NCBI GenBank assembly: GCA_012267415.1
Contig: JAAXGN010000104.1
Coordinates: 1-64,000, forward strand
DNA: 64,000 bases
DNA from: Candidatus Poribacteria bacterium
GTDB lineage: Bacteria; Poribacteria; WGA-4E; WGA-3G
Direction: 5' to 3'
A program made the position numbers and the translations under genes. Position 1 is the stretch's first letter, and every line of letters starts with the position of its first letter. Below the pieces are notes generated by a model. The model made no database searches and was not told the DNA's origin. It was given only the letters and a program-made list of their open reading frames with translations. Below are positions 11,041 through 41,522 of the stretch, piece by piece.

Positions 11041-11059
11041 TACTACAGAGGAATGAAGT

Positions 11060-24860: not shown

Positions 24861-27788
24861 TTACTGTTCCAATCCGTTAACGACATCATCCCAATCCCAC
24901 AGAAGGATTGAACCAACATACCCCGCACTGACGAGGGTTCTACCATCTGGTGAAAATGAAAGAACATACGGTGAAGCAGAATGTCCTTCAAGCGTAGTGA
25001 GTAGGTCGCCAGTAACCACATCCAATAATTGAATTCCCCCACCAATAATACTGAGAATAAGCACGGTATTATCTGGTGAAAATATCGCTTCAAGCCAATA
25101 AGTATCATCTCCAGTGGACACTTCCTTAAAGTGCGGTTGTTTCGCCCGGCCCACCAGACGAATTTGTTTTTGCATGACTACAGCAATTAAGGATCCATCA
25201 GGAGAAATTGTTATATCCCTAATGGTTTTTTCAATCGGTTGTTCTTCAAAGAAGGAGGTTAACAGAACACCATCTTTGACATCCCACATCTGAACCTTTT
25301 TTTCACTGGTAGCTATGACAAGTTTATATCCATCCGGTGAAAAAGCCATAGCTCTGAGCCATTCGGAGCGATCAGCAAACTTGATATCAAAGGTGTCGTC
25401 AGTTTCTGTATTCCATAAGCGAATTTTTCCATAAGTATTATAAACACCGAAGGCTATCGTTTTTCCATCAGGTGAGAATTCTATCTCTGAGAAATTTTCA
25501 TTGGTATACACCAAGCTATTTAACTCGCGTCCGGTGCTGACATCAAACAAGCGAATTATAGGGGTCGTCCCTAGCGGTTCTGTCGGTGCGTTCATTTTGC
25601 CTTTGCTGACAAATCTTGTTCCATCGGGTGAAAACGTCAATGGTGCTGATTCTGCATCCCATCTCGTATTTTCAAAAGCAGTTTTTGTGCGGTGTGTCGT
25701 TATGTGTGATGTCTCCAAATCCCACAACGTAATGATTCCGCTATAATCGACACTGGCAAGTATGGAACTATCATTCAAGTAACGTATGCTTCTTATCCAA
25801 GGTGTGTGTCTGGTAATGTGAGATACAATCGGTTTGCCTGTATTGATGTTCCAGTACTTGATTGTACCATCATCACTTGCACTCGCGAGCGTGCTGCCAT
25901 CTGTTGAAAATGCTAAATATTCAATAAAACCGATATGTGCTGTAAAGGTAGCTATCAATTCACCCGTGGTAGTATCCCATAATTTCACATGCTGACCTGC
26001 TCCACATGCGAGGGTTTTTCCATCCGGAGAGAATAACAATACATCTGGACCGCCAACTAACTTCTGATGGGTTCGCAACAAATCCCTACTTAACGAATGT
26101 TCTTGAAGTAGGATAGGTTCATTATTGCCTGACGTATCCCATAACCGTACGCTTCTATCATATCTTCCACTTGCGAGATGCGTTCCATCCGGGGAGAATG
26201 CCAATGATATAACACGATTAGAATCGGGTCCTATAATATCACCTGCTTGAATCCTTTCTGCTGCTCCTGTGAGTGTAGACTGCTTTTTACCAGTCTTTGC
26301 GTTCCACAGCGCAAGTGTAAAACTATCTTCAGCTATCGCAACTTTGTCGTGTGTAAGTGCGTAAACATCATGAGGATGTGAATCAAGTCGATTTTCAAGC
26401 TTCTTAACATGACTTTTTCCGGTTTCGGTATCTACCGAATAGAGCGTGTCTCCTGCTTGATTCAATCCGACAAGTGTTTTGCTGTCATCGGAGAACCGAA
26501 GCTCTGATGCAGCAGGCAGCGTTGCGTTGAGTGTAACCTTTTGTCCTGTATCTATCTCCCACAACTGGAATCCTGTTTCCCATCTACTACCGCCAATCGC
26601 GCTACTTGGGTCACCTCCACCATTTGCGAGGAAACGTCCATCTGGCGAAAAAGCAAACGCTTCACACATTCCCGGTAACAGTGAAATCTCCTGTCCAGTC
26701 TCTACATCATACAGCCACAGACCGATTTCAGTGCCAACAGCAAGTTGTTTGCCATTTGGGGAAAACTGAATCCCTCTAATTATGCCTTTTCCTAAACGCT
26801 TTTTCGCTTTATTAGGTAATTCCCATTGTGTGTAATCTTTCACTGTTTCCTCTTTTTGTGCATCGTCAGATATAGTGGTGCTGTTGTTAGTTTGCTGATC
26901 TTCAGGCTCATTCTGCTTTACCAATACATTTTCATTTATTGCTTTTGTTCGTACATCAAGTTTAGATTCCAGATTCGCTACTATAGGGGCATCAATGATC
27001 TCTATCGCGATCTCTGCAGTGGCATCGAAACTATAAGGTTTCTGAAAACGTGCCAAAAAATTGCTATTTCCAAAACCGAGAATAAGCAACACCACTGCTA
27101 ACGTGGAAGCGGTAATTGCCCACGGCGCGAAAGGTTTATTACTTGTCGGTGTAGTGGGTTTGACACGTGAAATTTTACGCATGACATTCTCAGTAAGATG
27201 TGGTGTGATTTGGAAATGGTCTAAAGCCTCTCTTATCATCGGTTCATCCTTCTGTAAACGCTGTTGTGCGCGACGGAGTCTGCTTTTTATCGTATTGGTA
27301 GATACACCCATAAATCTGCCTATCTCTGAACACGTCATCTCACCGAAGTAATGCAGTGTCATGACAGTGCGTTCACTTTCCTCAAGTTTCGCAAGTAGTT
27401 TTTTGACAACTTCGCGTTGTGCATCTACAGCGAATCGTTTATTCTCCTCATGCATGTATGTAGAATAGGTTGTTTCTTCATGATAAGGGATGTCCTTGTC
27501 CTGCATTAACTGTGTCCGACGGTATTTCTTACGGAACCAAGCTCTACAGAGACTTGTAGCAATTACATAGAGCCAACTTGAGAAACTTTGTGTCTTTTTC
27601 AGTGTTGCAAGATTTTGATACGCTTGCAGGAATGTATCTTGTGTAATCTCTTCTGCTGTATGAAAATCTCCGATTTTCCGCCACACCAGCGCGTGAACCT
27701 GTTTTTTATATTTCTCTAAAAGTTCCGCAAAGGCACTGTCATCACCTTCAAGCGTAAGATTGATCAATCGTGTATCGTTGTCTTTCAT
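24861..27788 (-). CDS. ECF sigma factor fused through a TM helix to WD40 propellers (copy 1)
   Basis: A 975-residue fusion. Sigma-70 region 2 lies at about 10-95 (FAELLEKYKKQVHALVWRKI, AEEITQDTFLQAYQNL) and region 4 at about 130-180 (LEESERTVMTLHYFGEMTCS, then EIGRFMGVSTNTIKSRLRRA). A helical link ITPHLTENVMRKISRVKP leads to one TM helix at about 221-241 (WAITASTLAVVLLILGFGN). A polar linker follows, then DYTQWELPNKAKKRLGKG and about 13 WD40-type repeats (335-975), enough for two propellers. Predicted topology puts the sigma domains in the cytoplasm and the propellers in the periplasm. A cleavage or release step would be needed to free the sigma part. No separate anti-sigma gene is adjacent. 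Confidence 0.93.
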   Translation of the reverse strand: MKDNDTRLINLTLEGDDSAFAELLEKYKKQVHALVWRKIGDFHTAEEITQDTFLQAYQNLATLKKTQSFSSWLYVIATSLCRAWFRKKYRRTQLMQDKDIPYHEETTYSTYMHEENKRFAVDAQREVVKKLLAKLEESERTVMTLHYFGEMTCSEIGRFMGVSTNTIKSRLRRAQQRLQKDEPMIREALDHFQITPHLTENVMRKISRVKPTTPTSNKPFAPWAITASTLAVVLLILGFGNSNFLARFQKPYSFDATAEIAIEIIDAPIVANLESKLDVRTKAINENVLVKQNEPEDQQTNNSTTISDDAQKEETVKDYTQWELPNKAKKRLGKGIIRGIQFSPNGKQLAVGTEIGLWLYDVETGQEISLLPGMCEAFAFSPDGRFLANGGGDPSSAIGGSRWETGFQLWEIDTGQKVTLNATLPAASELRFSDDSKTLVGLNQAGDTLYSVDTETGKSHVKKLENRLDSHPHDVYALTHDKVAIAEDSFTLALWNAKTGKKQSTLTGAAERIQAGDIIGPDSNRVISLAFSPDGTHLASGRYDRSVRLWDTSGNNEPILLQEHSLSRDLLRTHQKLVGGPDVLLFSPDGKTLACGAGQHVKLWDTTTGELIATFTAHIGFIEYLAFSTDGSTLASASDDGTIKYWNINTGKPIVSHITRHTPWIRSIRYLNDSSILASVDYSGIITLWDLETSHITTHRTKTAFENTRWDAESAPLTFSPDGTRFVSKGKMNAPTEPLGTTPIIRLFDVSTGRELNSLVYTNENFSEIEFSPDGKTIAFGVYNTYGKIRLWNTETDDTFDIKFADRSEWLRAMAFSPDGYKLVIATSEKKVQMWDVKDGVLLTSFFEEQPIEKTIRDITISPDGSLIAVVMQKQIRLVGRAKQPHFKEVSTGDDTYWLEAIFSPDNTVLILSIIGGGIQLLDVVTGDLLTTLEGHSASPYVLSFSPDGRTLVSAGYVGSILLWDWDDVVNGLEQ

Positions 27789-27835
27789 GGATCACCTCCG
27801 ATTTTACCCTATATGATGCCACGAGACGGTGAATT

Positions 27836-27850
27836 GGGTGCATGATTCTG
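27836..27850 (-). promoter_or_regulatory. Conserved 15-bp motif upstream of sigma-WD40 copy 1
   Basis: Minus-strand CAGAATCATGCACCC, with its near end 48 bp from the first base of the ATG. The same motif, with one or two changes, is at the same distance before the other two sigma-WD40 genes. Candidate operator or promoter element. Confidence 0.6.
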
Positions 27851-27870
27851 CAAAAAATTGTTTTACCTAT

Positions 27871-27879
27871 ATTATACCA
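27871..27879 (-). promoter_or_regulatory. Extended -10 (TGGTATAAT)
   Basis: Minus-strand TGGTATAAT preceded by TTCA; no clear -35. The same CATGGTATAATAT string precedes the secreted WD40 gene at 33348-33356. Confidence 0.45.
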
Positions 27880-27912
27880 TGAATTCACGGCAATAGGACA
27901 CTATAAGGAGGG

Positions 27913-28039
27913 GGTGTAAAGTATTTGGCAACATATGCACAGAAAACCTGTAGGAGCGATCTCCGAATCGCGACCTGTCGGGAATCGGAGTTCCCTCCTA
28001 CAATGAGTATGTCGGTTAATGCCAAAAACTTTACACACC
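27913..28039. mobile_element. MITE-like element, family A (inverted copy)
   Basis: A 127-bp element, the reverse complement of the one at 20351-20482 over nearly its whole length, including the GGAGCGATCTCCGAATCG / GAATCGGAGTTCCCTCC hairpin. Ends GGTGTAAAG and CTTTACACACC. TATAAGGAGGG flanks both sides (27902-27912 and 28040-28050). Confidence 0.85.
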
Positions 28040-28398
28040 TATAAGGAGGGGGTGTAAAGATATTGTCACCATAAGCGTCAATTTAGCGATATTCCCAAGC
28101 TGATAGATACGCATAGCGTCATTCTTCGCCATATAGTTTCACGATAGTCTTTGATTCTATTTTTATGTAGCACATTCATCCTTGATTGTACTCCGGAGCC
28201 CATCATTCCACGCGAAAAGTCTGTGCTTTGAAAATGACTTTATGCATCTGTAGCACATTCATCCTTGATTGTGCTACCAATACGTCTAATCAAGGATGAA
28301 TGTTGTAGTAAGAAATACAATTAAGGATACATGTTGTATAGAGAAGCACAATGGTATTAACGATGGGATTCTAACAGTCTAAACTGCTCTCTATTCTC
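28040..28398. repeat. Composite repeat region
   Basis: No gene. After the flanking repeat it carries GGTGTAAAGATATTGTCACC and CATAAGCGTCAATTTA, the same start as other elements here. Then come GTAGCACATTCATCCTTGAT arms (about 28167 and 28257) with an inverted partner near 28290-28310. CATCATTCCACGCGAAAAG near 28202 recurs inverted near 33870. Confidence 0.65.
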
Positions 28399-31323
28399 CT
28401 ACCGTTCCAATCCCTTAAGGATTTCATCCCAATCCCACACAAAAATTGTACCATCTGCTCCCGTACTGACGAGTGTTTTACTGTCCGGAGAAAATACCAA
28501 CGTTCCTACTGGTGCTGTGTGTCCGTCAAGAGTGGCGAGTTTCTTCTCCGTTACTACATCCCACAATTCTATCACACCGTTTCCAAATCCAGTAACAAGC
28601 ACGGTACTCTCTGGAGCAAACATTAACGTTTTCACACGCTCTTTAACTTTCTTTTGACGGATCAGGTTATTTCTGTCCATAATACGGATCTGTTGCGTAC
28701 TTCCTACTGCAAGAAGGTTGCCATTTGAAGAAAATGACAATGCTGTAATCCGTCCCCCTTTTGGATTTTCTTCTGTCAACGTAGTTAACACTTTTCCTGT
28801 TTCAACACTCCAGATTTGAAGTCTTCCATTCCTTGCTCCGGTGACAAATTCTTTTCCATCAAGGGAGAATACTAAATTACTGATTTCATACTGGTGAGAC
28901 GACCCAAGATTATTGTCTGGATCAAAGTAAGGTATATCAGAGTGCTCACCTGTCTCAGTATTCCACAGACGAATTTTACGCTGACCGATTAAAGCTACGG
29001 TTTTTCCATCAGGTGAAAAAGTTACAGATGAAAAGTCCATGGATCCTGTCAAAGTCTGCAGCTCAAGTCCTGTCTTTACATCCATCAGACGTATTAACAT
29101 ATCTGGTATTGAAATGAGATTTGACATGCCGATTCCTGCATGGAAAAGTGAATGGCCACTTACACCGAAGCTGGCAAACTTTGTTCCACCAGGTGAAAAT
29201 GATAGTGCTTGTATTAGACCCCGACTTTCTGTAAAAGGCACTTCACTCTTTTGCGAGGTTTTTAAATCCCATAGGGTGATTATGCCGTTAAACGCAACAG
29301 TCACAAGGGTGTTAGTATTATTGACAAAAGTCGCTGCTTTTATCAATTGTGTGTGATCAGCGATACGTATCGGCAACTGATTCCCTGTTTCCGTATTCCA
29401 AAACAGGATTGTGCCATCTGTACTTGCACTGGCAAGGGTTGCGCCATCTGGTGAGAATGTCAACGCGGCGATACCGCCGATATGTCCAACGATTCTTGTG
29501 AGAAGTTCCCCTGTTGCGGTATCCCACAACAGAACCGTCCTATCGGTACTACCACTGGCGAGTATTTTACCGTTCGGAGAGAACGCGATCGTATTGACCC
29601 ATCCTGTGTGTTTTTGAAGGATGACAGGGATGTCTCTGTTAATGGTATCCCATAATTGTATCGTCGTATCCGAACTGCCGCTTGCAAGACGCGTACCATC
29701 TGGAGAAAATGCCAAAGTCAAAATTTTGTTATTTAGTCCACCCTTTACTTCTGTATACTGTCCATCAACGGTTACTTTAGGAAATATGGTTTGCTTCGTT
29801 TTATGTTGTCTAATCAGGGTAGAAAGTTTTTCTCCAGTTTTTACATCCCACAGTTCAATATCCCCGTTTTTTCTTTCAACTGCAAATTTGTTGTGAGTGA
29901 GTGCATAGGGAGCAGGAAGCGGACCTCCTTCAAAAGGTCGTTCGATCTTTTGAAGGTTTATTTTTCCTGTCTCAACATTTAAGATACCGATTGTATCTCC
30001 CCAAGTTCCCAAACTGACAAGCGTTTTGCTGTCTTCAGAAAACCGTAATATTGATGAAGGAAAATCCTCAGTAAGTGTTATTTTCTGTCCGGTAGCAGTA
30101 TCCCACAACTGTAATTCCTTTCGCCGGAACTTACTGCCGCTTCCAAATCTTCCACCGCCGCTGGCAAGGTAGCGTCCATCTGGTGAAAATGAGAGTGATT
30201 CGCACATACCGGGGAACATCGTAATCTCTTTCCCTGTTTTCGCGTCATAAAGCCATACGCCAATATCGCTACCGACTGCCAGACGGGTGCCGTCTGGTGA
30301 GAATTGTAAGGTATGAATCCCACCTTTACCCAACCGCGCTTTCGCAGCTTTCGGCAATTCCCATTTTGTATAATCTTCTGCTACTTCCTCCGTTTGTGTC
30401 TCAGCAATTGATTCAGAGGCATCATTAGGTTGCCGTTCAGGATTATCGATTTTACTCTGAGCGTTTGACACTTCTCTTTGTGTCCGCACATTTGGCTTAG
30501 ATTCTAAGTTCGCAACGATAGGTGTGTCCACGATCTCAACCGTCATCTCTGCATTTGCATCAAGACTATAGGGTTTTTGAAAACGCATCAGGTATTTGCT
30601 ATTCCCAAAACCGAGCATAAACAACACCACTGCTAATGTAGACGCAGTAACGACCCAAGGAATGAGAGGTTTGCTACTGGATGGTGTTACAGGTTTGACA
30701 CGCGCAATTTCACGCATGACATTTTCAGTAAGATGTGGTGTGATTTGGAAATGGTCTAATGCTTCTCTAATAATCCCCTCATCCTTCTGTAAACGCTGCT
30801 GTGCGCGACGAAGTCGACTCTTAACAGTATTTGCTGATACACCTAAAAAAGCACCTATCTCTGAACACGACATCTCACCGAAATAATGCAATGTCATGAC
30901 AGTACGTTCACTTTCGCCAAGCTTCGCAAGCAGTTTTCTAACAACATTGCGTTGTGTTTCAACGGTGAACTGGTTGTTTTCTGTTACGATGTATTCAGAA
31001 TAGGTTGCTCTTTCATTTACAGGGTTATCTATATTCTCCTGCAGCTGCGAACGTATTTTCTTATTACGTAACCAGGTACCGCAAAGGTTTGAAGCAATTA
31101 CATAGAGCCAACTTACAAAACGTTGTGGCTTCTTCAACGTTCTGAGTTGCTGATGTGCTCTTATGAATGTATCCTGTGTTATTTCCTCAGCAAAATGGAA
31201 ATCGCCAATTTTTCTCCAGACGAGCGTGTGAACCGGTTTCTGGTATTTTTCAACAAGTTCTGCAAAGGCGGCATCGTCACCATCAAGCGTACGTTGGATT
31301 AATTGTGCATCACTGTTTTTCAT
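28399..31323 (-). CDS. ECF sigma factor fused through a TM helix to WD40 propellers (copy 2)
   Basis: 974 residues with the same architecture as copy 1: region 2 (FAELVEKYQKPVHTLVWRKI, AEEITQDTFIRAHQQL), region 4 (LGESERTVMTLHYFGEMSCS, GAFLGVSANTVKSRLRRA), link ITPHLTENVMREIARVKP, TM helix (IPWVVTASTLAVVLFMLGFG) and junction DYTKWELPKAAKARLGKG before the WD40 array. GGAGG precedes the ATG. The sigma half is far more conserved among the three copies than the propeller half, which suggests a shared promoter specificity with divergent sensed ligands (inference). It lies 144 bp downstream of a secreted WD40 gene, as copy 3 does. Confidence 0.93.
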   Translation of the reverse strand: MKNSDAQLIQRTLDGDDAAFAELVEKYQKPVHTLVWRKIGDFHFAEEITQDTFIRAHQQLRTLKKPQRFVSWLYVIASNLCGTWLRNKKIRSQLQENIDNPVNERATYSEYIVTENNQFTVETQRNVVRKLLAKLGESERTVMTLHYFGEMSCSEIGAFLGVSANTVKSRLRRAQQRLQKDEGIIREALDHFQITPHLTENVMREIARVKPVTPSSSKPLIPWVVTASTLAVVLFMLGFGNSKYLMRFQKPYSLDANAEMTVEIVDTPIVANLESKPNVRTQREVSNAQSKIDNPERQPNDASESIAETQTEEVAEDYTKWELPKAAKARLGKGGIHTLQFSPDGTRLAVGSDIGVWLYDAKTGKEITMFPGMCESLSFSPDGRYLASGGGRFGSGSKFRRKELQLWDTATGQKITLTEDFPSSILRFSEDSKTLVSLGTWGDTIGILNVETGKINLQKIERPFEGGPLPAPYALTHNKFAVERKNGDIELWDVKTGEKLSTLIRQHKTKQTIFPKVTVDGQYTEVKGGLNNKILTLAFSPDGTRLASGSSDTTIQLWDTINRDIPVILQKHTGWVNTIAFSPNGKILASGSTDRTVLLWDTATGELLTRIVGHIGGIAALTFSPDGATLASASTDGTILFWNTETGNQLPIRIADHTQLIKAATFVNNTNTLVTVAFNGIITLWDLKTSQKSEVPFTESRGLIQALSFSPGGTKFASFGVSGHSLFHAGIGMSNLISIPDMLIRLMDVKTGLELQTLTGSMDFSSVTFSPDGKTVALIGQRKIRLWNTETGEHSDIPYFDPDNNLGSSHQYEISNLVFSLDGKEFVTGARNGRLQIWSVETGKVLTTLTEENPKGGRITALSFSSNGNLLAVGSTQQIRIMDRNNLIRQKKVKERVKTLMFAPESTVLVTGFGNGVIELWDVVTEKKLATLDGHTAPVGTLVFSPDSKTLVSTGADGTIFVWDWDEILKGLER

Positions 31324-31370
31324 GGATTACCTCCGTTTTTTCCCATAGTGACAACACAAAGAGATTAAAC

Positions 31371-31385
31371 GGGTGCATAATTTTG
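31371..31385 (-). promoter_or_regulatory. Conserved 15-bp motif upstream of sigma-WD40 copy 2
   Basis: Minus-strand CAAAATTATGCACCC, at the same 48-bp distance from the start codon as in the other two copies. The surrounding 50 bp closely match 36850-36900. Confidence 0.6.
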
Positions 31386-31467
31386 ATAATTGAAGAAGTA
31401 TGTTCAGATATATGGAGGTTAAAGATTCGTTCTGGCAAGAAGATTGATCTTGTCTATGCTATCATGA

Positions 31468-33309
31468 TCACTTTTCAAGTTCCCACAATAACACCGTGCC
31501 GTCACTACTACCACTTGCAAGCGTCTTGCTATCAGGACTGAATGCGAGGCTATTCACTGGATACGTATGTGCTTTCAACTCGATAATGAAAGAACCGGTA
31601 CGGACATCCCATAGACTAACATTTCTGTCCCAACCACCACTCGCTAACATCTTTCCATTTGGACTGAACGCAATACAAGAGTTGTCTCTACCTTCCATAC
31701 TTACTGTCCGAACAGATTCACCTGTCTGCGGATTCCAAAGACGTACTGTTCTATCGCTCGACGCACTCGCTAATAACGAACCATCTGCGCTATACGCAAC
31801 CGTATGCACATACTGAGTATGACCTTCCAAACGAGTGACAGTTTTATTCGTAATCGTATCCAAAAGCAGCACAGTGTTATCATCATCCCCGCACGCTAAT
31901 TGAGAACCATCAGGACTAAACGCAACGCAAAATATCATACCCTTCGTGTCCACAGTAAGGATTTGATGTTGACCTGTCTGCACGTCCCATAGATACATGG
32001 AAACGTTGTCAATTGCACTCAATAGTTTCTTACCATCTGGACTGAAGGCAATGTCTGTAAACCAAAAATGACTTTCATCCAGTATTCTCAGAGATTTGCC
32101 TGTTTTTGAATTCCATAAGCGAATAGTATCGCTATGATCAACACTCGCAAGGGTATCTCCATCGGGACTATAGACAACTTTTGCGACATGCTCTGTGTGC
32201 CCTTTCAGCACCCGGATAGATTCACCTGTTTGTGCGTCCCATAAATGAACGGTGTTATCCCTGCTCCCACTTGCCAAAAACGTGCCATCCGGACTGAACG
32301 AAACGCTATTGACACCATTTGTATGTCCAGTTATTGTTCGCAGCTGCATACCGGTGTTTGTGTCCCATAAACGCAAAGTGCCGTCCCGGCTACCTGTCCG
32401 CAGTGTTTTGCCATCCGGACTGAACGCTATGCTCAACACAAAAGACGCATGTCCTTTCAACGTGCGGATGAATGCTCCCGTCTCCGCATCCCACAGTCGC
32501 GCGGTATCGTCCCAACTTGCGGTTGCCAACATTTTGCCATCCGGACTATAGATAACGATATCGACAAAGTCCGTGTGATCCGCTATCGTGTAGCGTTCTT
32601 CACCTGTTTGCACGTTCCACGTTCGCATAGTGGTATCATCACTGGCAGTCGCTATTGATTTGCCATCCGGACTGAACGTTACGTACTTTATTTTTTCTGT
32701 ATGTCCGATGAATGTCCGCAGCAATTCACCCGTTTGCACATGCCATAACCGCGCAGTTGTGTCTCTACTGCAACTCGCCAGTATTGCACCGTCCGGACTA
32801 AACGCAACGCTTATGACACCGGATGCATGTCCATCCATTGTCCGTAGGTGTGCGCCTGTCTGTATATCCCACAGACGGATGGTATGATCATAGCTTGCTA
32901 AAAGTGTTCCGTCAGGACTAAACGCTATGCCTTCGACTCCGTCTGAATGTCCCGTCATTGTGCGTAGTTCTGTACCTGTGCGCGCATCCCACAAACGGAT
33001 AGTCTTGTCAGCACTTCCACTTGCCAACAACGACCCATCAGGACTGAACACCGACATCAAAACAAAATCCGTATGTCCTGTGAGAAATCGGAGTGGTTTA
33101 TCTGTGTGTGCGTCATAAATCCAAATGCCGTTGCTACACGAGACTACTAAATAACTCCCGTCAGGGGAATAGGTTATATTTCCTCTTATGCCACCTTTAC
33201 CAAGCCGTGCTTTTGCACCTTCGGGTAAACCCCATCGGGTATGATCTTGTGCAGAGGTGTTTTGGATAGAAACACCTATTACGAAAATCAAAACAACTAT
33301 TCTATGCAT
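31468..33309 (-). CDS. Secreted WD40 double-propeller protein (copy 1)
   Basis: 613 residues. Signal peptide 1-20 (VVLIFVIGVSIQNTSA), then DHTRWGLPEGAKARLGKGG, the same junction motif as in the sigma fusions. About 14 WD40 repeats follow, each with FSPDG.LA.S..D.TIRLWD.TG; this is enough for two seven-bladed propellers. Repeats are highly regular, unlike those of the sigma fusions. Predicted periplasmic or surface protein, probably a binding scaffold. It is followed 144 bp downstream by sigma-WD40 copy 2, and a partner relation is inferred from the duplicated arrangement. Confidence 0.92.
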   Translation of the reverse strand: MHRIVVLIFVIGVSIQNTSAQDHTRWGLPEGAKARLGKGGIRGNITYSPDGSYLVVSCSNGIWIYDAHTDKPLRFLTGHTDFVLMSVFSPDGSLLASGSADKTIRLWDARTGTELRTMTGHSDGVEGIAFSPDGTLLASYDHTIRLWDIQTGAHLRTMDGHASGVISVAFSPDGAILASCSRDTTARLWHVQTGELLRTFIGHTEKIKYVTFSPDGKSIATASDDTTMRTWNVQTGEERYTIADHTDFVDIVIYSPDGKMLATASWDDTARLWDAETGAFIRTLKGHASFVLSIAFSPDGKTLRTGSRDGTLRLWDTNTGMQLRTITGHTNGVNSVSFSPDGTFLASGSRDNTVHLWDAQTGESIRVLKGHTEHVAKVVYSPDGDTLASVDHSDTIRLWNSKTGKSLRILDESHFWFTDIAFSPDGKKLLSAIDNVSMYLWDVQTGQHQILTVDTKGMIFCVAFSPDGSQLACGDDDNTVLLLDTITNKTVTRLEGHTQYVHTVAYSADGSLLASASSDRTVRLWNPQTGESVRTVSMEGRDNSCIAFSPNGKMLASGGWDRNVSLWDVRTGSFIIELKAHTYPVNSLAFSPDSKTLASGSSDGTVLLWELEK

Positions 33310-33347
33310 GTGCGCGTTATCCTGTGCTTGAGGATTGTTTGACCAAT

Positions 33348-33356
33348 ATTATACCA
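33348..33356 (-). promoter_or_regulatory. Extended -10 (TGGTATAAT)
   Basis: Minus-strand TGGTATAAT about 40 bp before the secreted WD40 start, in the context CATGGTATAATAT shared with 27871-27879. Confidence 0.45.
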
Positions 33357-33390
33357 TGAGTTCCATCAAATAGAGGAATGAATATGAGTA

Positions 33391-33900
33391 TGTAAAGTTT
33401 TGATTACAAAGTGCCAATTTAAGGTTGTTTCCAGGCTGGTAGGTGCGATATCCTTATCGCACTATAGATGTCAATTTAAGGAAATTGTTTTGTTCTGCGT
33501 TGTCTTTAGTCCCATAGGGACGACATGTTTATAGAAAAACGTTATCCGAACTCTCTTTAGTCCCGTAGGGACGATATGTTTATGTTATTGCCTAATGTTA
33601 TACATATCGTCCCTACCAAATCAACGCCAAATGCGCGTGGACGAATACGCGTTTGGTATTCGTCATGATTTGGCGGGACTAAAGAACGGTGTTCAACCAT
33701 GATCTATAAACATATCGTCCCTACGGGACTGAGGTCACTATTATATTTGGATTTATCTACTTAAATTGACGCTTATGGTGCCAAAAACTTTACGCACCCT
33801 GACGTGCTTCGTAGCACAATCAAGGCTGAATGTGCTACGGTTGAAGAAAATCATTTTCTAAGCACGGAACTTTTCGCGTGGGATGATGGGTTTCGTAATA
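33391..33900. repeat. Nested palindromic elements
   Basis: No gene. The outer ends TGTAAAGTTTTGATTACAAA (33391) and GCCAAAAACTTTACGCACCC (33780-33799) are inverted. Immediately inside lie CAATTTAAGG and CTTAAATTGACGCTTATGG. The core has two copies of TTTAGTCCCGTAGGGACGAT-type sequence and their complements (CATATCGTCCCTACGGGACT near 33711). One palindrome centre is split by a 60-bp insert with its own hairpin (ACCAAATCA ... TGATTTGG). From 33800 a GTAGCACAATCAAG-type arm follows. Confidence 0.75.
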
Positions 33901-33904
33901 TAAC

Positions 33905-36838
33905 TTAATCTTTATTAAGGACTTCATCCCAATCCCATAGAAGAATTGTGCCATCATACCCCGTACTGAAAAGCGTTTTGCCATCAGACGAAAAAAGTAG
34001 TTTTGAAATTAGTGCCGTGTGCCCATCAAGGGTAGCGAGTTCGTCTCCTGTAGCAATATCCAATAATTGAATTCCACCTTCCCACAGTCCTACAACAAGC
34101 ACTGTATCATCTGGTGAAAACACCAATGCATTGCAATTTACCTTAGATACTTCCTTAAAATGCGTTTTTTTCTGGCTACCGAACAAACGAATCTGTCCAA
34201 GTTTTCCTACCGCAAGCAAAGAATCATCTGCAGAGAATGCTAACGCGGTAATTTCGTTGTGAATCATATTCTGAATCATAAATTCAATTCCATTTTCTGT
34301 TGGTTCCTCTATTTCCTTCCCTAATAAGTCTATTTGATTTCCCCTGAAGATTGGTTCCTCTACTTCATCTCCTGTTAAGAAGTTGGTTAACTCATCCCCA
34401 GTTTTCGTATCCCATATTTGAACTTTTCCTTGTGAGTCTCCACTGACGAGTTTTTTTCCATCCTGTGAGAATATCAAAGTGGAGATTGTATGCAGGAACA
34501 TATCTTTATGAGGTATGTTAAGAGACATGTTTACGATTTTGCCCGTTTCTGTGTTCCACAAGCGGATTCCTCTTGAACTACCGATAGCTAGTGTTTTTCC
34601 ATCGGGTGAAACTGCCATTGCTGAAACGTTATCTGATTCTCTCAAACGTGCTAATTCACGACCAGTACGGACATCAGTAAAGTGAATCAGTTGCTGATTG
34701 ACTATTGCAAGTCTTGATCCATCAGGCGAAAAGGCTAAGTTCAATAAAAAGTCACAATACCTTTTAGTTTGAAGGTTAGTTTTTCGTTGTGTCTTTAGAT
34801 CCCAAAATGTAGTTATGCCGTTATACGCTACACTTGCAAGTGTATTACTATCTTCTATAATCGCCATTCCTCTTTGTGTATATGTGTGCTCGGAGATGTG
34901 TATGGGTAATGGATTATTTGTTTCTGTATTCCAAAACAGAACTGCACCATCTCCACCTGCACTTACAAGCGTGCTTCCATCTGGTGAAAAAGTTAACGCA
35001 GTTATACGGTTAGTATGTCCGGTAAGTGTTGCGCGTAGTATACCAGTATCTGTATCCCACAACTGCACCGTATTATTTACACCCCCACTTGCTAACATTT
35101 TTCCGTTCGGAGAAAATGCAAAAACTGGAGCGTGCTCGATTAGTTGACCTACGTGTTTTCTGAGGATGATCGGTTCACTGTTTCCAGTCGTATCCCACAA
35201 TAGAGATGTATCTTGGCTCCCAATAGCAAGTTGAGATCCGTCAGGAGAGAATGCTAATCCTACAATATGGTCGTTTTTTCCCATTTCAAAAGACATTTGT
35301 TTTCTGAGAGTTGGTGGTTTTTTCCCTGAAATCGTGTCCCATACTTTCTCTGAAATCGTGTCCCATAATTGAATCTTGCCGGACACTTCACCAATTGCTA
35401 GTTTATCATGTGTAAGTGCATAGGATTCACTATAAGCTCTTTCCTTTGGGCGTTCTCTGAAAGTTTTTATGTTCACTTCTCCTGTTTCAATATTTAATTT
35501 GCCAATTGTATCTCCCCAATCCCCCAGACTGATAAGCATCTTGCTATCTTTAGAAAACAACAATGCTGCGGCATCTGGAATACTATTTGCAAGTTCCACT
35601 TGCTTACCCGTAGAAATTTCCCACAACTGAATTTCTTTTCCTTGATATCTGCCAGTTCCCCCATACCCACCACCATTAGCGAGCAAACGTCCATCTGGCG
35701 AAAAGGCAAGGGATTCGCACACACCGGGGAACATGGATATTTCCTTCCCTGTTGTCGCATCGTAAAGCCATATACCGATATTACTGCCGACTGCAAGTAG
35801 GCTTCCATCTGGTGAAAACGCTAACGCATTGGTGCCACCCTTCCCCAACCGCGTTTTCGCTGCTTTCGGCAATTCCCATTTTGTATAATCTTCTGCTACT
35901 TCGTCCGCTTGTGTCTCAGCAATTTCTGCAGAGGCATCATTAGGTTGCTGTTTAGGATTGTCGATTTTACTCTGAGCGTTAGACACTTCTTTTTGTGTCC
36001 GCACATTTGGCTTAGATTCTAAGTTCGCAACTATAGGTGTGTCCACGATCTCAACCGTCATCTCTGCATTTGCATCAAAACTATAAGGCTTTTGAAAACG
36101 CATTAAGTATTTGCTATTACCAAAACCGAGTATCAGAAGTACTACGACTAATGTAGACGCAGTAACTACCCAAGGAATTAAAGGTTTACTACTTGTCGGT
36201 GCAGCGGGTTTGATACGCGAAATCTCATGCATGACATTCTCAGTCAGATGTGGTGTGATTTGGAAATTGTCTAATGCTTCTCTTATCATCGGTTCCTCCT
36301 TCTGTAAACGCTGCTGTGCGCGACGAAGTCGACTCTTAACCGTATTTACCGATACACCTAAAAACGCCCCTATCTCTGTACACGACATCTCACCGAAGTA
36401 GTGTAACGTCATGACAGTGCGTTCACTTTCCGCAAGTTTCGCAAGCAGCTTTTTGACAACTTCGCGTTGTGTGTTGACGGTGATATGGTTATTTTCTGTT
36501 ACGATGTATTCAGAATAGATTGCCCTTTCATCTACAGTACTTTCTATATTCTCATGCAGCTGCGAACGTATATTCTTATTACGTAACCAAGTACCGCAAA
36601 GATTGGAAGCAATTACATAGAGCCAACTTACAAAACGTTGTGGTTTCTTCAACGTTCTGAGTTGTTGATGCGCTTTTATGAACGTATCCTGTGTTATCTC
36701 TTCAGCAAAATGGAAATCGCCAATTTTTCTCCATACAAGCGCGTGAACCTGTTTCTGGTATTTCTCAACAAGTTCCGCAAATGCGGTATCATCACCATCA
36801 AGCGTACGTTGGATTAATTGTGCATCACTGTTTTTCAT
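33905..36838 (-). CDS. ECF sigma factor fused through a TM helix to WD40 propellers (copy 3)
   Basis: 977 residues, closest to copy 2 in the sigma half. Region 2 (FAELVEKYQKQVHALVWRKI), region 4 (LAESERTVMTLHYFGEMSCT, GAFLGVSVNTVKSRLRRA), TM helix (IPWVVTASTLVVVLLILGFG) and junction DYTKWELPKAAKTRLGKGG. The WD40 region has an irregular insertion near residue 820 rich in Glu (GDEVEEPIF, GKEIEEPTENG) between blades. Predicted membrane-tethered sigma with periplasmic propellers. It lies 139 bp downstream of secreted WD40 copy 2. Confidence 0.93.
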   Translation of the reverse strand: MKNSDAQLIQRTLDGDDTAFAELVEKYQKQVHALVWRKIGDFHFAEEITQDTFIKAHQQLRTLKKPQRFVSWLYVIASNLCGTWLRNKNIRSQLHENIESTVDERAIYSEYIVTENNHITVNTQREVVKKLLAKLAESERTVMTLHYFGEMSCTEIGAFLGVSVNTVKSRLRRAQQRLQKEEPMIREALDNFQITPHLTENVMHEISRIKPAAPTSSKPLIPWVVTASTLVVVLLILGFGNSKYLMRFQKPYSFDANAEMTVEIVDTPIVANLESKPNVRTQKEVSNAQSKIDNPKQQPNDASAEIAETQADEVAEDYTKWELPKAAKTRLGKGGTNALAFSPDGSLLAVGSNIGIWLYDATTGKEISMFPGVCESLAFSPDGRLLANGGGYGGTGRYQGKEIQLWEISTGKQVELANSIPDAAALLFSKDSKMLISLGDWGDTIGKLNIETGEVNIKTFRERPKERAYSESYALTHDKLAIGEVSGKIQLWDTISEKVWDTISGKKPPTLRKQMSFEMGKNDHIVGLAFSPDGSQLAIGSQDTSLLWDTTGNSEPIILRKHVGQLIEHAPVFAFSPNGKMLASGGVNNTVQLWDTDTGILRATLTGHTNRITALTFSPDGSTLVSAGGDGAVLFWNTETNNPLPIHISEHTYTQRGMAIIEDSNTLASVAYNGITTFWDLKTQRKTNLQTKRYCDFLLNLAFSPDGSRLAIVNQQLIHFTDVRTGRELARLRESDNVSAMAVSPDGKTLAIGSSRGIRLWNTETGKIVNMSLNIPHKDMFLHTISTLIFSQDGKKLVSGDSQGKVQIWDTKTGDELTNFLTGDEVEEPIFRGNQIDLLGKEIEEPTENGIEFMIQNMIHNEITALAFSADDSLLAVGKLGQIRLFGSQKKTHFKEVSKVNCNALVFSPDDTVLVVGLWEGGIQLLDIATGDELATLDGHTALISKLLFSSDGKTLFSTGYDGTILLWDWDEVLNKD

Positions 36839-36885
36839 GGATTACCCCAGTTTTTGTCTATAGTGACAACATAAAGAGACTAAAC

Positions 36886-36900
36886 GGGTGCATAATTCTG
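36886..36900 (-). promoter_or_regulatory. Conserved 15-bp motif upstream of sigma-WD40 copy 3
   Basis: Minus-strand CAGAATTATGCACCC, 48 bp upstream of the start codon, identical spacing to copies 1 and 2. Confidence 0.6.
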
Positions 36901-36977: not shown

Positions 36978-38888
36978 TCACTTGCTAAGCTCCCATAAGA
37001 TTACGGTCCCGTCAGAACTGCCACTTGCAAGCGTGTTTCCATCCGGACTGAACGCTACGCTATTCACAGGACCCGTATGTCCTTTCAACTCTATCATGAA
37101 AATTCCAGTGCGTACATCCCACACACGGATGATACTATCCCAACCTCCACTTACCAGTAATCTCCCATCCGGACTGAATCCAACGCAAAGGTTATCTTTA
37201 ACCTCTGTCTTTACCGTCAGAACATGAGTGCCTTTTTTCGGATTCCACAAACGAATATCTCCATCTCTATCCAGACTTGCTAACAAAGATCCATCCCGAT
37301 TATAAGCAAGCGCATTCACTGAATTCTTATGACCTTCCAAACGAGCAAAAACTGTGTTGGTGTTTGTATTCCACAGCAGCACAGTATGATCCCGACTTCC
37401 ACATGCCAATTGCGATCCATCCGGACTAAACGTCATGTTATTAATCGTGCTTTTCTCTTCTATGACAATAGATTGATGTCTACTTTTTTGCCAGTCCCAC
37501 AGCTGCACTGTGTTGTTTTCATTACTTGCCCGCAACAGTGTCTTTCCGTCTGGACTGAAAGCAATGCTTGTGATCCGAAATCTGTCTTGTTTCAATGTCC
37601 ATAAAGGATCCCCTGTTTTGGTATCCCACAAGCGGATAGTTTCGTTATCATCTGCACTTGCAATGGTTTCCCCGTTTGGGCTGAATATAACAATTGTGAC
37701 ACGCCGAGTATGTCCCTCCAACACCCGGAGCAATTCCCCTGTCTGTGCGTCGCATAGATGTATGGTATTATCCGTGCTTCCGCTTGCCAGTATTTTCCCA
37801 TCTGGACTGAATACAACGGTATAAACCCTGTCCGTGTGATCAGTGATTGTCCGCAGCTGCATTGCTGTGTTTGTGTTCCACAAGCGTAAGGTACCGTCAC
37901 GACTACTAGTCCGAACCGTTTTCCCGTCCGGACTAAAAACAATGCTATATACATCGGATGTATGTCCTTTCAGTACTCGGGGATGTGTCAACGTCTGTGC
38001 GTCCCATAGACGTGCGGTGTAGTCCCCGCTTGCAGTTGCCAACATTCTGCCATCTAGACTGAATATAATGGTGTTGATATCTAAATTATGTCCTTCCAAA
38101 CCGATACTGTCATTACGTCCTCCCAATATTTTGCGTAACTTACCTGTTTGTGTATCCCACAGATGTGCAGTGTAGTAATTGCTTGCACTGATGATCGTCT
38201 TACCATCCGGACTGAAAGTAACGGTTTTTATTTCATCTGTTTTATACCCTGAAATAGTCCGTAGTATTTTGCCTGTGTGCACATCCCACAGTCGTAACGT
38301 TCTGTCTTCACTGGCACTGCCAATCATCTTGCCATCCGGACTAAATTCGATATTTAGCACACCATGCGTATGTCCAGTCAGTGTGCGCAAATGTGTTCCC
38401 GTTTGCACATCCCAGAACCTGATAGTTCTATCATAACTCCCACTGACTAAATGCATACCTTCTGGATTGAAGGTTACTGTTTCAACACGATGTTCATGCC
38501 CTATCATTGTCCGTAATTCTGTACCGGTTCGTGCGTCCCATAGCCGTATAGTCTTGTCATAACTTCCACTTGCCAACAAAGACCCATCTGGACTATACGC
38601 GACGCTTGAAACTAAATCCGTATGTCCTGAAAGTAATCGAAGCGGTGTATCTGTGTGTGCGTCGTAAACCCAAACGCCAGTGGTGCACGGGACTGCCAAA
38701 TGTTTTCCATCAGGAGAATAGATGATATCTCCTGTAATTGTCCCTTTACCGATCCGCGCTTTTGCATCATCGGGTAAACCCCATCGGGTATAATCTTGGG
38801 CAAAGGTGTTTTGGATAAAAACACCTATTAAGAAAATCAGAACAACTAATCTATACGTGTACGCGTTATTTTTAATTTTCCGATTCAT
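36978..38888 (-). CDS. Secreted WD40 double-propeller protein (copy 2)
   Basis: A protein of 636 residues from the ATG at 38888. The open frame extends upstream to 39128, but that part merely overlaps the previous WD40 gene in another frame. From 38888 the protein has a basic N-terminus, a signal peptide (LVVLIFLIGVFIQNTFA) and DYTRWGLPDDAKARIGKG, with GGAG upstream. About 14 WD40 repeats follow, close to those of the protein at 31468. The start lies 17 bp inside the 3' end of the upstream gene, so translation may be coupled. Predicted periplasmic; followed by sigma-WD40 copy 3. Confidence 0.9.
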   Translation of the reverse strand: MNRKIKNNAYTYRLVVLIFLIGVFIQNTFAQDYTRWGLPDDAKARIGKGTITGDIIYSPDGKHLAVPCTTGVWVYDAHTDTPLRLLSGHTDLVSSVAYSPDGSLLASGSYDKTIRLWDARTGTELRTMIGHEHRVETVTFNPEGMHLVSGSYDRTIRFWDVQTGTHLRTLTGHTHGVLNIEFSPDGKMIGSASEDRTLRLWDVHTGKILRTISGYKTDEIKTVTFSPDGKTIISASNYYTAHLWDTQTGKLRKILGGRNDSIGLEGHNLDINTIIFSLDGRMLATASGDYTARLWDAQTLTHPRVLKGHTSDVYSIVFSPDGKTVRTSSRDGTLRLWNTNTAMQLRTITDHTDRVYTVVFSPDGKILASGSTDNTIHLCDAQTGELLRVLEGHTRRVTIVIFSPNGETIASADDNETIRLWDTKTGDPLWTLKQDRFRITSIAFSPDGKTLLRASNENNTVQLWDWQKSRHQSIVIEEKSTINNMTFSPDGSQLACGSRDHTVLLWNTNTNTVFARLEGHKNSVNALAYNRDGSLLASLDRDGDIRLWNPKKGTHVLTVKTEVKDNLCVGFSPDGRLLVSGGWDSIIRVWDVRTGIFMIELKGHTGPVNSVAFSPDGNTLASGSSDGTVILWELSK

Positions 38889-40851
38889 TGAGAACTTTAC
38901 TCCAATCGTGTAAGAGAATTGTGCCATCTGCACCGCTTGTAGCAAGCGTTTTTCCATCTTCAGAAAACACAAACTGTGATAACCCATTTGAGTATCCCGT
39001 GAGATTAGAAATAATCTTACCAGTAGTTGAATCTCGCAATTGCAGGATTCCACCACTGTTCCCACTAAGAAGAATAGAACCATCTGGAGAAAATGTGATA
39101 GCATGTGGAGGATTAAATTGGGATACATCTTCTAATCGCACTGTACGGTCGTATTGGACAGTTTCAGGATTCCAGGTATAAATGTGTGTACCACCGGCAA
39201 AGGTGTTTCCGTCTGGTGCAAATGCTACTGCGCCTTGGTCTGGATAAGATGCAAGCTGCTCACCGGTCATGGTATCCCACAACCTCAGTGTGACGTCATG
39301 TGTCCAGCCTGAGGTAACAATAGTTTTGCTATCGGGAGAAAATGCCAAACTGTAAACAGAAGTCGTAAGTCCCTTAAGTCTACAACGCGTATTTCGGTTA
39401 GGTACATCCCAAATCTGTATTGTATTATCTTTACGCGCAGTTACTGCAAGAAGTTCACCATCAGGAGAAAACACCACTTTATTTACAAAACCAGCATATT
39501 CTTTACCACCTATTGTAGAGAAAAAACTTTTTGTCTGAGTATCCCATAATCGCACTACAATATCTTTGGTTACAAACAGACTCCCGTCTGGTGATATGGC
39601 GACTTTATAGTCTCTATAATTAGCTTTCTCAATCCTATCAACAGAGAGTCTGTTTCCCGTATCAACATCCCAAATCGAAACGAATAAGTGGGAATTACTT
39701 GCACTCAAACTTGTAAGTGTCCTGTGAGTGGGATCATGAACACTGGACTGGTTGATAGCGTTGAATGCCAATGCTGTTTGCGCTTCTGAGTGTTGTGTAA
39801 GTGTAAATTGTTGCTTTTCCGAATCCGCATCCCACAAACGGATAGTCCCATCAGAATTCGCACTTACCACCTTTTTCCCATCTGGTGAAAAGTCTATTGC
39901 GATAAATGTTGAGTTTTCTGCATGTCCTTTTAACATTTTATTAGGCTGAGGTCTACCTAAGATATTACGGACTCGTTTAGAAATCGAATGTTTTTCGCGT
40001 TTATCAATTTTCCAGAATCGTACTATTCCATCAGTACTCCCACTGGCAAGAAGGCTACCATCGGGTGAGAATGCTATTGCCTGAAATGGCTCCACTGCTT
40101 TAATCGTATACTGAAGCGAACTATTTTCAACATCCCATATTCTTACCATATTAGAACTATCAGCATAGGCAAGTGTTTTGCTATCTGGAGAAAAGGCTAA
40201 TGTCTTTATACCATGCTCTGGTTCTTCTACTGTGAATACACACTTGCCAGTGGTTCTGTCCCACACATGGACTACAGGAATCTTATATTCATGAAACCAA
40301 TATTTACTATCATCTGCCGCTGCAAGAAACCTTTCATCTGGTGAGATTGCTATTTGCAAACTTATCCAGTCATTCATGCTCAGCCTTGTTTTGATAGACT
40401 TATTTGGATCATCATTAAGAATCCACAAATCAGTTCTCGCATACCATGGCAACTTCATCCTCCATCCAGAATAAGAGAGTATTGTGCTTGTTGCTCTAAA
40501 TTGGAGAATATTATTACGGCGACGAAGATGCGGTAAAATAGATTCCAAGCTGTCTTCTTCTAATTTCCATAGGTTCTTGTTCTCATCTAATCCTTCACAT
40601 GTAATGGTGTTGCGATCAGTAGGGCTCACAAGCATATTGATGTATGATCTGTCAATGCTTTGATTATCAAGTTCACCATCAGGGAATAGTGCAATCTCTT
40701 CACCCGTATTGGCATCGTAAAGCCAAACACCTATGGCTGTTTCAACGGCTAATTGTGTGCTATCTGGCGTGAATTTGAATCTATAGGCAGTACCTTTTCC
40801 CAAACGCGCTTTCGCTTTTTCTGGTAATTCCCATTGTGTGTAATCTTTCAT
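38872..40851 (-). CDS. WD40 protein derived from a decapitated sigma-WD40 fusion
   Basis: 659 residues starting MKDYTQWELPEKAKARLGKG, which aligns with the internal junction of the sigma fusions (copy 1 reads VKDYTQWELPNKAKKRLGKG). There is no sigma domain, TM helix or signal peptide, so the product would be cytoplasmic if made. AGAGGG lies a few bases before the ATG. About 12 WD40 repeats, several irregular. Upstream DNA (40852-41360) still encodes pieces of the lost linker, interrupted by an inserted repeat element. It may be a surviving new gene or a pseudogene not yet decayed inside the WD40 part. Confidence 0.8.
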   Translation of the reverse strand: MKDYTQWELPEKAKARLGKGTAYRFKFTPDSTQLAVETAIGVWLYDANTGEEIALFPDGELDNQSIDRSYINMLVSPTDRNTITCEGLDENKNLWKLEEDSLESILPHLRRRNNILQFRATSTILSYSGWRMKLPWYARTDLWILNDDPNKSIKTRLSMNDWISLQIAISPDERFLAAADDSKYWFHEYKIPVVHVWDRTTGKCVFTVEEPEHGIKTLAFSPDSKTLAYADSSNMVRIWDVENSSLQYTIKAVEPFQAIAFSPDGSLLASGSTDGIVRFWKIDKREKHSISKRVRNILGRPQPNKMLKGHAENSTFIAIDFSPDGKKVVSANSDGTIRLWDADSEKQQFTLTQHSEAQTALAFNAINQSSVHDPTHRTLTSLSASNSHLFVSIWDVDTGNRLSVDRIEKANYRDYKVAISPDGSLFVTKDIVVRLWDTQTKSFFSTIGGKEYAGFVNKVVFSPDGELLAVTARKDNTIQIWDVPNRNTRCRLKGLTTSVYSLAFSPDSKTIVTSGWTHDVTLRLWDTMTGEQLASYPDQGAVAFAPDGNTFAGGTHIYTWNPETVQYDRTVRLEDVSQFNPPHAITFSPDGSILLSGNSGGILQLRDSTTGKIISNLTGYSNGLSQFVFSEDGKTLATSGADGTILLHDWSKVLNESEN

Positions 40852-40974
40852 TGTTCCCTCTGCATGTATATCTTCAGATATAGTGGTATGTTATCATCTT
40901 GATGCTCATCAGGTTGATTTAACTGTGCTAATATGTCGGTATTTCTGATTTCATTTTGCTCCTATAGGTGCGTC

Positions 40975-41293: not shown

Positions 41294-41401
41294 GGTGCGT
41301 CCACGATCCCAACCATCATCTCTGCAGTAACATCAAAATTAATTATACCATAAATCTGGTATCTGGGTGGAACTTTCTACTGAATAGTCTGCATAGTATA
41401 T

Positions 41402-41430
41402 TTGACAAAAATAAATCTTATAAGTATAAT
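41402..41430 (+). promoter_or_regulatory. Consensus sigma-70 promoter
   Basis: TTGACA 41402-41407, 17-bp spacer, TATAAT 41425-41430: a perfect match to the consensus, about 85 bases before the rhodanese gene. It probably drives the whole 41523-44963 run. Confidence 0.75.
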
Positions 41431-41522
41431 ATAAATATATACTAATGTGTTGTCGTTAATATAAGATTTATACAGATACAGTATCACTTTATAATTTTCT
41501 AAGGTAAGGAAGGGTAAAAGAT

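Follow-up and report, generated by a model that had tools for sequence, protein, structure and literature searches.

Poribacteria are bacteria that are frequent in sponges. The window considered here, i.e. the whole stretch of 64,000 nucleotides of contig JAAXGN010000104.1 that was analysed, belongs to a Candidatus Poribacteria genome of 5.46 Mb (completeness 97.6%, contamination 5.3%) and encodes three proteins in which a sigma factor of the extracytoplasmic function (ECF) type, one transmembrane (TM) segment and a series of WD40 repeats follow one another in a single chain (Table 1). These proteins are members of a large paralogous family. Judging from the sequences, it is rather probable that they are one-chain receptors from which the sigma part would be released by proteolysis and which share a common promoter.

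The sigma-TM-WD40 chains had been observed earlier in a sequence-only reading of the window, and this observation is confirmed. The three open reading frames (ORFs) of 974-977 aa are present (975, 974 and 977 aa), and the order sigma, one TM, WD40 is borne out by TIGR02937, hydropathy and PF00400, respectively, the sensor and the sigma factor being linked in cis in each protein, as had been proposed. Residues 18-180 of the three proteins match the sigma70-ECF profile TIGR02937 with 92-95 bits (cut-off 42.9), and regions sigma2 and sigma4 alone are present, which places them among the ECF sigma factors. The closest PDB entry of the sigma domain is SigW, both by profile (5wuq, 4.1e-32) and by fold (5wuq, 1.5e-6), followed by other ECF sigma factors. 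Hydropathy predicts one strong TM segment per protein (residues 220-238); protein 3 has a second hydrophobic stretch (909-927) within its propeller part. The WD40 repeats (PF00400) were recognised with 159-229 bits, which upholds their presence. Their number, however, had been given as about 13, while the AlphaFold2 model of protein 2, the one model available for this count (mean predicted local distance difference test, pLDDT, 68), contains sigma helices followed by 55 strands at 327-964, which correspond to about 14 blades. The repetitive propeller 2ymu ranks first among the Foldseek PDB matches of this model, and the double propeller 1nr0 is also among them.

As a rule, an ECF sigma factor is held by an anti-sigma factor that is a protein of its own. 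In the window proteins the sigma domain is joined to the sensor by a conserved block composed of a linker, a KP..PW entry, the TM segment and a juxtamembrane segment. The linker has a mean length of 41 residues and the consensus xIRExLxxxQLxxxLTENIMxxI, with two short helices predicted; the juxtamembrane consensus, FQKPYSFxAxSExTIEIVDAPIVL, stands after the TM and is kept regardless of the ectodomain type. Neither zinc motifs (CxxC or HxxxCxxC) nor cysteines of any kind occur in the linkers of the 94 TM-bearing family members described below (0/94 in both cases), and the Pfam scan of residues 180-330 of protein 1 gave no match and recognised no anti-sigma domain; the zinc-finger anti-sigma domain that ECF48, ECF52 and ECF53 have between sigma4 and the TM was not found. 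A profile of the block was searched in 84 Poribacteria genomes and matched in 67 of them, that is in 58/58 of those that belong to the window's family (1 to at least 56 matches each), in 9/14 from the remaining families in this order (one to three matches each) and in 0/12 genomes beyond the order. A search for the domain order across Poribacteria had been suggested with the first observation. Among the best block matches listed, none has an internal stop. Moreover, 13 of the 14 order-level rows above 150 bits run from sigma into a TM (several rows being incomplete at the stretch edge), and therefore the fusion seems to be older than the expansion of the family. In a contig scan of all genomes with six 8-mers of a window protein, the matches reaching the sigma part came from metagenome-assembled genomes (MAGs) of Poribacteria, except for locus L123 of a Gammaproteobacteria MAG, where a weak match concerned sigma alone.

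The family was sampled from the stretches around 65 region-2 matches in the window's genome and from 80 loci of the genome-contig scan, which together gave a set of 117 different proteins, all from one sigma subfamily; the window's own genome contributes 39. Single chains with a TM and a C-terminal domain, which is predicted to lie outside, make up 94/117 members overall and 29/39 in the own genome, the type having been assigned by the juxtamembrane pattern (90) with four members added on reading. According to motif counts, the own members with TM comprise 14 BNR, 9 WD40 and 6 other types, and those without TM comprise 2 BNR, 1 WD40, 6 other and 1 bare sigma, so that the WD40 type accounts for 10/39. 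Pfam analysis of 18 more members, picked for variety, recognised Sortilin-Vps10/PSII_BNR, LRR with GHL15, Peptidase_M16_C, C-type lectin and Kelch domains in the C-terminal parts, helix-turn-helix-like C-terminal domains in the TM-less L019 and L023, and nothing in some of the scanned members. The predicted outer domain is therefore interchangeable between at least six types (WD40, BNR/Vps10, Kelch, LRR-GHL15, C-type lectin and M16). A finding specific to WD40 was rejected, as other sensors sit on the same sigma-linker-TM chassis; the sequence-only reading was right about the WD40 trio, but too narrow in scope for a design with at least six sensor types on one chassis in one Poribacteria family. 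Across 67 aligned members 41 positions are invariant, and 38 of these are located in the sigma domain. When sensor classes, assigned by regular-expression counts, were placed on the sigma tree, 17 class changes were needed (minimum possible 6; mean after shuffling 22.2, a value as low being reached in 0/200 shuffles), and the well-supported sigma branches require 6 or more changes for BNR-with-TM and 5 or more for WD40-with-TM. The sigma domain of protein 3 pairs with that of a BNR-type paralogue (support 99/95). These results indicate that the sensor has been exchanged repeatedly.

Some TM-less members differ in their extensions. The helix-turn-helix-like C-terminal domain occurs in L019:9258-10523 and L023:7733-9022, and the extension of the latter shares 49% identity over 164 aa with a membrane protein encoded next to it. 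Four others (L034, L027, L110 and L111) have an extension of ~370 aa that is alike across genomes; in the one that was scanned (L034:5577-7268) Pfam found no named domain.

A bipartite motif noticed by eye upstream of the family genes is the second element that unites them. The expectation-maximization (EM) model, seeded with a consensus taken by eye from the 39 upstream sequences that it was fitted to, reads AATTATGCA[AC]C, 17 or 18 bases, [CT]GTCACTAT, and the family promoter consensus is TGCA[AC]C-N17/18-[CT]GTC. The log-likelihood of the motif was 327, compared with at most 100.5 in 20 shuffled upstream sets with the same starting motif, and its information content was 19.5 bits, compared with ~9 in the four shuffled sets printed. 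Such a common motif greatly exceeds what chance would produce. A score of at least 9 on the position weight matrix (PWM) within 150 nt was found in 32/39 own members, the window trio included, and in 4/404 other ORF upstreams; the negative set consists of mechanically called ORFs (200 aa or longer), some of which may be false, and two of the four that reached the score are the same gene in two loci. In 31 of the 32 members the distance from the end of the site to the start codon is 20-58 bases. If L036 (site at 165 bases, score 13.0) and three members without a site of their own that lie behind same-strand genes with one (L024, L040|6280 and L031; 11.1, 13.1 and 16.6) are included, the motif stands directly before the gene or at the operon head in 36/39 own members. 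With the matrix trained on the own genome, 48/77 members of other genomes exceed the 99th percentile of the shuffles (46/77 at score 9), many of them being mutual orthologues. The motif was also found at three genes of the other genus of the same family (L126, L127 and L136; scores 16.4-17.4), and the best score in 14 order-level outgroup rows was 4.6. On inspection, the order-level upstreams L128-L144 are without the TGCA box, and several combine a CRTCAT-like -10 with another -35-like word.

The variants of the two boxes bear on the question of which sigma factor reads which promoter. Among 87 sites the first box is TGCACC in 37 and TGCAAC in 21, the second CGTC in 36, TGTC in 26, TATC in 13 and CATC in 8, with other words in the remainder. 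Box similarity co-varied with sigma similarity at r=0.22 (p=0.019) in the own genome, where the partial correlation given the spacer was 0.13 (p=0.063), and the partial correlation for all 87 sites was 0.21 (p=0.001). This weak coupling points to a mostly shared specificity with some subclasses and makes cross-recognition of promoters among paralogues likely. An ECF-type site before an ECF sigma gene is the usual sign of autoregulation. The presence of a shared ECF-type promoter before the family genes is therefore the strongest evidence obtained for a functional sigma part and speaks for auto- or cross-regulation within the family. A genome-wide search for the core ATGCAMC-N18-YGTC gave 38 matches, as opposed to 5 for the reversed pattern; 13 of the 38 stand before family genes, about eight belong to a dispersed element of ~230 bp, and the remaining ones are found in various places, several of them intragenic, and hence the assumption that all of them mark regulon members was rejected. 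The ~230-bp element is intergenic and sometimes tandem (L152, L154, L156, L157, L158, L160 with two copies, and L167) and carries the ECF-like core ATGCACCT[AT]TTTGGG...GTGTC or ACGTC; it may represent a mobile element or a small RNA controlled by this sigma class.

According to the mechanism proposed here, each protein would span the membrane as a receptor made of one chain, with a working ECF sigma factor as its inner half. Without a signal, the tether, and probably also linker helices docking in cis, would prevent sigma from binding RNA polymerase. A signal at the ectodomain would expose the juxtamembrane block to a first protease, after which a protease of the site-2 protease (S2P)/RseP type would cleave the TM and free the sigma domain. 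Given the largely common promoter, the freed sigma would act on its own gene and probably also transcribe those of paralogues and neighbouring exported proteins; in several loci the targets would include a sigma-less copy of its own ectodomain. A wider version is put forward tentatively, in which dozens of single-chain membrane sigma receptors of one bacterial family, with exchangeable ectodomains, read largely one promoter class, which would drive their own genes and those of exported proteins nearby, and in which the cell, in several loci, would sense exported-protein demand via a membrane-held copy, with no separate anti-sigma.

The last part of this mechanism concerns the neighbours of the family genes. 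A matrix scan of ~0.79 Mb of genome sequence, overlapping parts being counted twice, revealed sites at non-fusion genes near a fusion, among them those of a lipoprotein before the L002 sigma gene (20.4) and of secreted proteins near the L031 (16.6) and L034 (11.4) fusions, all signal peptides and lipoproteins in this work being judged by eye. In L024 the gene of an M16 protein with a signal-like start and a site of its own (11.1) precedes the sigma-M16 gene by 147 bp, and the two M16 parts are 64% identical over 405 aa. The LRR-GHL15 sensor of L021 matches two neighbours with signal-peptide-like starts (52% and 49% identity over ~593 aa), the lectin-type sensor of L030 an adjacent protein with such a start (29% over 432 aa), and the sensor of L031 a neighbour with no clear signal at its listed start (35% over 127 aa). 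A near homologue thus accompanies 4/4 members of the non-propeller TM-type, a class defined after the results had been seen. Overall, a sigma-less homologue of the own sensor lies within 8 kb of 14/38 own members, a count that excludes four matches to a truncated sigma-member copy (L029|-1-2806) and one 111-aa fragment. The WD40 twins are weak evidence, because WD40 proteins are common (at least 23 elsewhere in the examined loci). In 8/12 loci of other genomes the 440-aa type is accompanied by a twin (56-75%) whose N-terminus is hydrophobic. It is quite possible, if somewhat doubtful, that the pairing of sensor and effector is an accident of tandem duplication and that the twins are broken-off copies, not regulated targets; this explanation is compatible with the proposed mechanism save for its last clause, the twins as targets. 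It agrees with the lack of an intact sigma-less twin of BNR members within 8 kb and with the linker/TM remnants in some sigma-less copies (L040|9135, L041|12645 and L052|1282), but less well with the M16 twin, which has its own signal-peptide-like start and family promoter, and with the twins of the 440-aa type. In two genomes (L041:10100-13568 and L057:7064-11606) a TM-less sigma-WD40 gene overlaps a sigma-less TM-WD40 gene by 14 bases, which looks like a split receptor, the second gene of the L041 pair being fragmented.

Proteolytic release is likely by analogy, since precedents exist in IutY and RsgI. IutY of Pseudomonas putida, an ECF243 sigma/anti-sigma chimera, is cleaved by Prc and RseP (PMC5411451) and resembles the family in that a cytosolic ECF sigma and a periplasmic domain form one chain with proteolytic release (PMC5411451, PMC8999054), which in the family would hold by analogy; in RsgI, RseP cleaves within the TM (PMC12203970). 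A different possibility, which we regard as unlikely, is that the whole protein recruits RNA polymerase at the membrane upon a change in the shape of its ectodomain. Membrane-bound one-component activators such as ToxR and CadC are believed to work in this way. A single chain acting in this way needs no dedicated protease, no cleavage site has been identified in the family, and the promoter evidence applies equally to both modes. However, the nearest fused precedents are proteolytic, as shown for IutY and proposed for ECF52 in the sources concerned, and the strongly conserved juxtamembrane block would be easier to explain as a processing element. As regards the inactive state preceding proteolytic release, the N-terminal AlphaFold2 model (pLDDT 65.8; predicted template modelling score, pTM, 0.55) is confident in the sigma part alone, with values below 50 pLDDT in the TM and juxtamembrane regions. 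Its sigma domains are compact as in anti-sigma-bound structures, with a TM-score to target of 0.73 for CnrH (4cxf, CnrH-CnrY complex), 0.64-0.67 for SigW (5wuq/5wur) and 0.45 for RNA polymerase-bound sigmaE (6jbq), single-domain chains scoring higher. Because of the pTM of 0.55 little weight is given to this arrangement; it lends weak support to the hypothesis that the linker may inhibit sigma in cis like a minimal anti-sigma.

Several features favour an orientation with sigma inside and the putative sensor outside the inner membrane. In the 94 TM members the mean net charge of 25 residues is +1.3 before and -1.9 after the TM; it is higher on the sigma side in 91, equal in 2 and lower in 1, and an uncharged segment of 21-24 residues is present in 93/94. 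Cysteine makes up 0.27% of the C-terminal parts in TM members (n=74), against 1.27% in members without TM (n=13, p=3.7e-8), and within the BNR type 0.20% with TM (34) and 0.96% without (6, p=1.3e-4), these p-values being inflated by kinship among copies. The WD40 module follows signal-peptide-like starts in seven of the ORFs listed, while four listed WD40 ORFs start at the module without a signal (window 38872, L022|4640, L048|200 and L058|10737). The WD40 part is thus probably extracytoplasmic, as the sequence-only reading had assumed. That it is instead cytoplasmic as in the ECF57 type, the hydrophobic stretch being no real TM or an anchor with both ends inside, is very improbable. Some ECF57 proteins with WD40 extensions contain a cysteine pair that may connect sigma2 to sigma4 (PMC8999054). 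C81 (numbering of protein 2) occurs in 109/117 family members and C81 together with C153 in 39/117, the window trio included; a connection between the two sigma regions, redox-based or through a metal, is possible. Signal-less WD40 and BNR relatives exist as well. The uncharged segment, the charge bias and the cysteine depletion of TM members speak against such a location, as do the lectin, M16 and LRR-GHL15 ectodomains and the sigma-less twins with signal-like starts. ECF57 is the nearest WD40 ECF group found described (PMC8999054). It shares with the window trio the WD40-like C-terminal extension, and cysteines occur in sigma2 and sigma4 of some of its members, but the passages devoted to it propose a protein-interaction mechanism and mention no TM, and it is set apart by this description from proteins with a TM and non-WD40 sensors. 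A tandem sigma-WD40 pair of another sigma clade in the window's genome (L001:6018-8699 and 8979-11672), for which hydropathy shows no TM and cysteine amounts to 1.7-2.4%, resembles the ECF57 description more than the family members do.

A number of observations count against the receptor mechanism as proposed. The 23/117 members without TM are partly short or broken, but intact proteins of the BNR and WD40 types are found among them as well. The motif remains below the 99th-percentile threshold in 29/77 members of other genomes, and in the own genome L034|10385 lies 473 bases behind a gene with a site (10.4) and is doubtful, L038|3801 has a weak site (6.2), L039 has no motif upstream, and the three sigma-less WD40 ORFs of the window have no family motif of their own. 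Conservation extends beyond the boxes, as 8/30 flanking columns exceed 0.30 bits, with a patch left of the first box reaching 0.92, and spacer columns reach 1.25, and therefore part of the promoter likeness may be inherited. Docking of the linker in cis relies on the model with pLDDT 65.8 and pTM 0.55, and direct-coupling analysis of sigma-linker contacts was uninformative (effective number of sequences, Neff, 53, dominated by phylogeny). The genome-wide search for site-2 proteases that had been suggested did find matches (2 M50, along with 4 S41), but M50 occurs in 14/14 and S41 in 10/14 control genomes, and their presence discriminates little. Finally, exported-looking sigma-less relatives vary between 0.13 and 1.14% cysteine over 11 ORFs, so that the cysteine argument on topology, and this part of the support for an extracytoplasmic WD40 domain, is not clean. 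Least probable of all is a repeat family with a mostly inert sigma, spread by duplication or recombination and with an upstream motif that is inherited and not selected, since this would agree with the relics and truncated copies (38872-40851; L022|10234), the motif in the dispersed ~230-bp element, the conserved flanking columns and a spacer similarity that tracks sigma similarity more than box similarity does (own r=0.34 vs 0.22), but not with information that peaks in the boxes (box columns up to 2.16 bits, 22/30 flanking columns at most 0.30), the concentration of invariant positions in sigma or the best listed block matches without internal stops.

In comparison with known systems, sigma factors fused to a membrane sensor, WD40 extensions and two-protein multi-sensor sigma families are known already. 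WD40 extensions on ECF sigma factors in Planctomycetes, mentioned in the sequence-only reading, are indeed described (PMC8567305). IutY differs from the family in having a CSS anti-sigma domain and a cell-surface receptor partner; it is called unique, and no swapped ectodomains are described in the relevant part of the paper (PMC5411451). The actinobacterial groups ECF52 (SCO4117), ECF48 and ECF53 likewise have sigma fused to a TM, and for ECF52 an outer carbohydrate-binding domain is reported, proteolytic release is proposed and autoregulation is suggested (PMC8999054, PMC5826349). These three groups have, however, the zinc-finger anti-sigma domain that is missing from the Poribacteria linkers, and SCO4117 is the sole ECF52 member in its genome, with no sensor variety described in the passages on this group. 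The SigI/RsgI systems of Clostridium thermocellum are similar with respect to several paralogues, outer sensor modules and usual autoregulation (PMC6056542, PMC4711584), as well as to the cleavage of RsgI by RseP (PMC12203970), which in the Poribacteria family would be assumed by analogy. Their sigma and sensor anti-sigma are nevertheless two proteins, whereas the family has one chain, SigI is treated as distinct from ECF, and eight SigI and nine RsgI (PMC6056542) stand against 39 members here. The Poribacteria single-cell paper reports abundant WD40, and its available text contains no word starting with 'sigma' (PMC3909097). Among the papers listed in searches of open-access literature on Poribacteria sigma factors or on fused and membrane ECF sigma factors, no description of a one-chain, zinc-free, sensor-swapping and promoter-sharing sigma family was found; the scale, the sensor swapping and the shared promoter look new.

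Table 1. Family genes, their promoters and sigma-less WD40 ORFs in the window (nucleotide positions)
Feature	Position	Strand	Length	Parts and remarks
Sigma-TM-WD40 protein 1	33905..36838	(-)	977 aa	sigma 36299-36838; linker-TM-juxtamembrane block 35969-36298; TM 36125-36181; WD40 part ~33908-35881
Sigma-TM-WD40 protein 2	28399..31323	(-)	974 aa	sigma 30784-31323; block 30454-30783; TM 30610-30666; WD40 part ~28402-30366
Sigma-TM-WD40 protein 3	24861..27788	(-)	975 aa	sigma 27249-27788; block 26919-27248; TM 27075-27131; WD40 part ~24864-26831
Putative promoter of protein 1	36860..36897	(-)		AATTATGCACC-N18-TGTCACTAT; ends 21 nt before ATG; PWM 19.2
Putative promoter of protein 2	31345..31382	(-)		AATTATGCACC-N18-TGTCACTAT; ends 21 nt before ATG; PWM 19.2
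Putative promoter of protein 3	27810..27847	(-)		AATCATGCACC-N18-CATCATATA; ends 21 nt before ATG; PWM 13.9
Sigma-less WD40 protein	31468..33309	(-)		fourth gene in the interval; signal-peptide-like start (by eye)
Second sigma-less WD40 protein	36978..38888	(-)		signal-peptide-like start (by eye)
WD40 ORF without sigma, signal or TM	38872..40851	(-)		

The sigma-less WD40 protein situated between proteins 1 and 2 and the WD40 part of the neighbouring sigma proteins are homologous (30-31% over 666-677 aa). For the second one, the likely start, judged by eye, is MNRKIKNN at 38888, the listed ORF extending to 39128. The third ORF is probably a relic of another family member, because the DNA upstream of it (40852-41520, minus strand) contains a remnant of the juxtamembrane block riddled with stops. 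Intergenic DNA at 33470-33719 and 40972-41240, upstream of two WD40 genes, is duplicated (83-89% over ~60 nt plus an identical 28-mer), which indicates tandem duplication of the locus.

Summarizing, a lineage of Poribacteria seems to have turned a sigma factor into a receptor chassis, multiplied it and exchanged its sensors many times. If this is true, the family would offer a compact one-protein design for synthetic sensing, and its concrete promoter would allow the signalling state of uncultured symbionts to be read from metatranscriptomes. It also raises the question of how 39 sensors avoid or exploit cross-talk on one promoter class.

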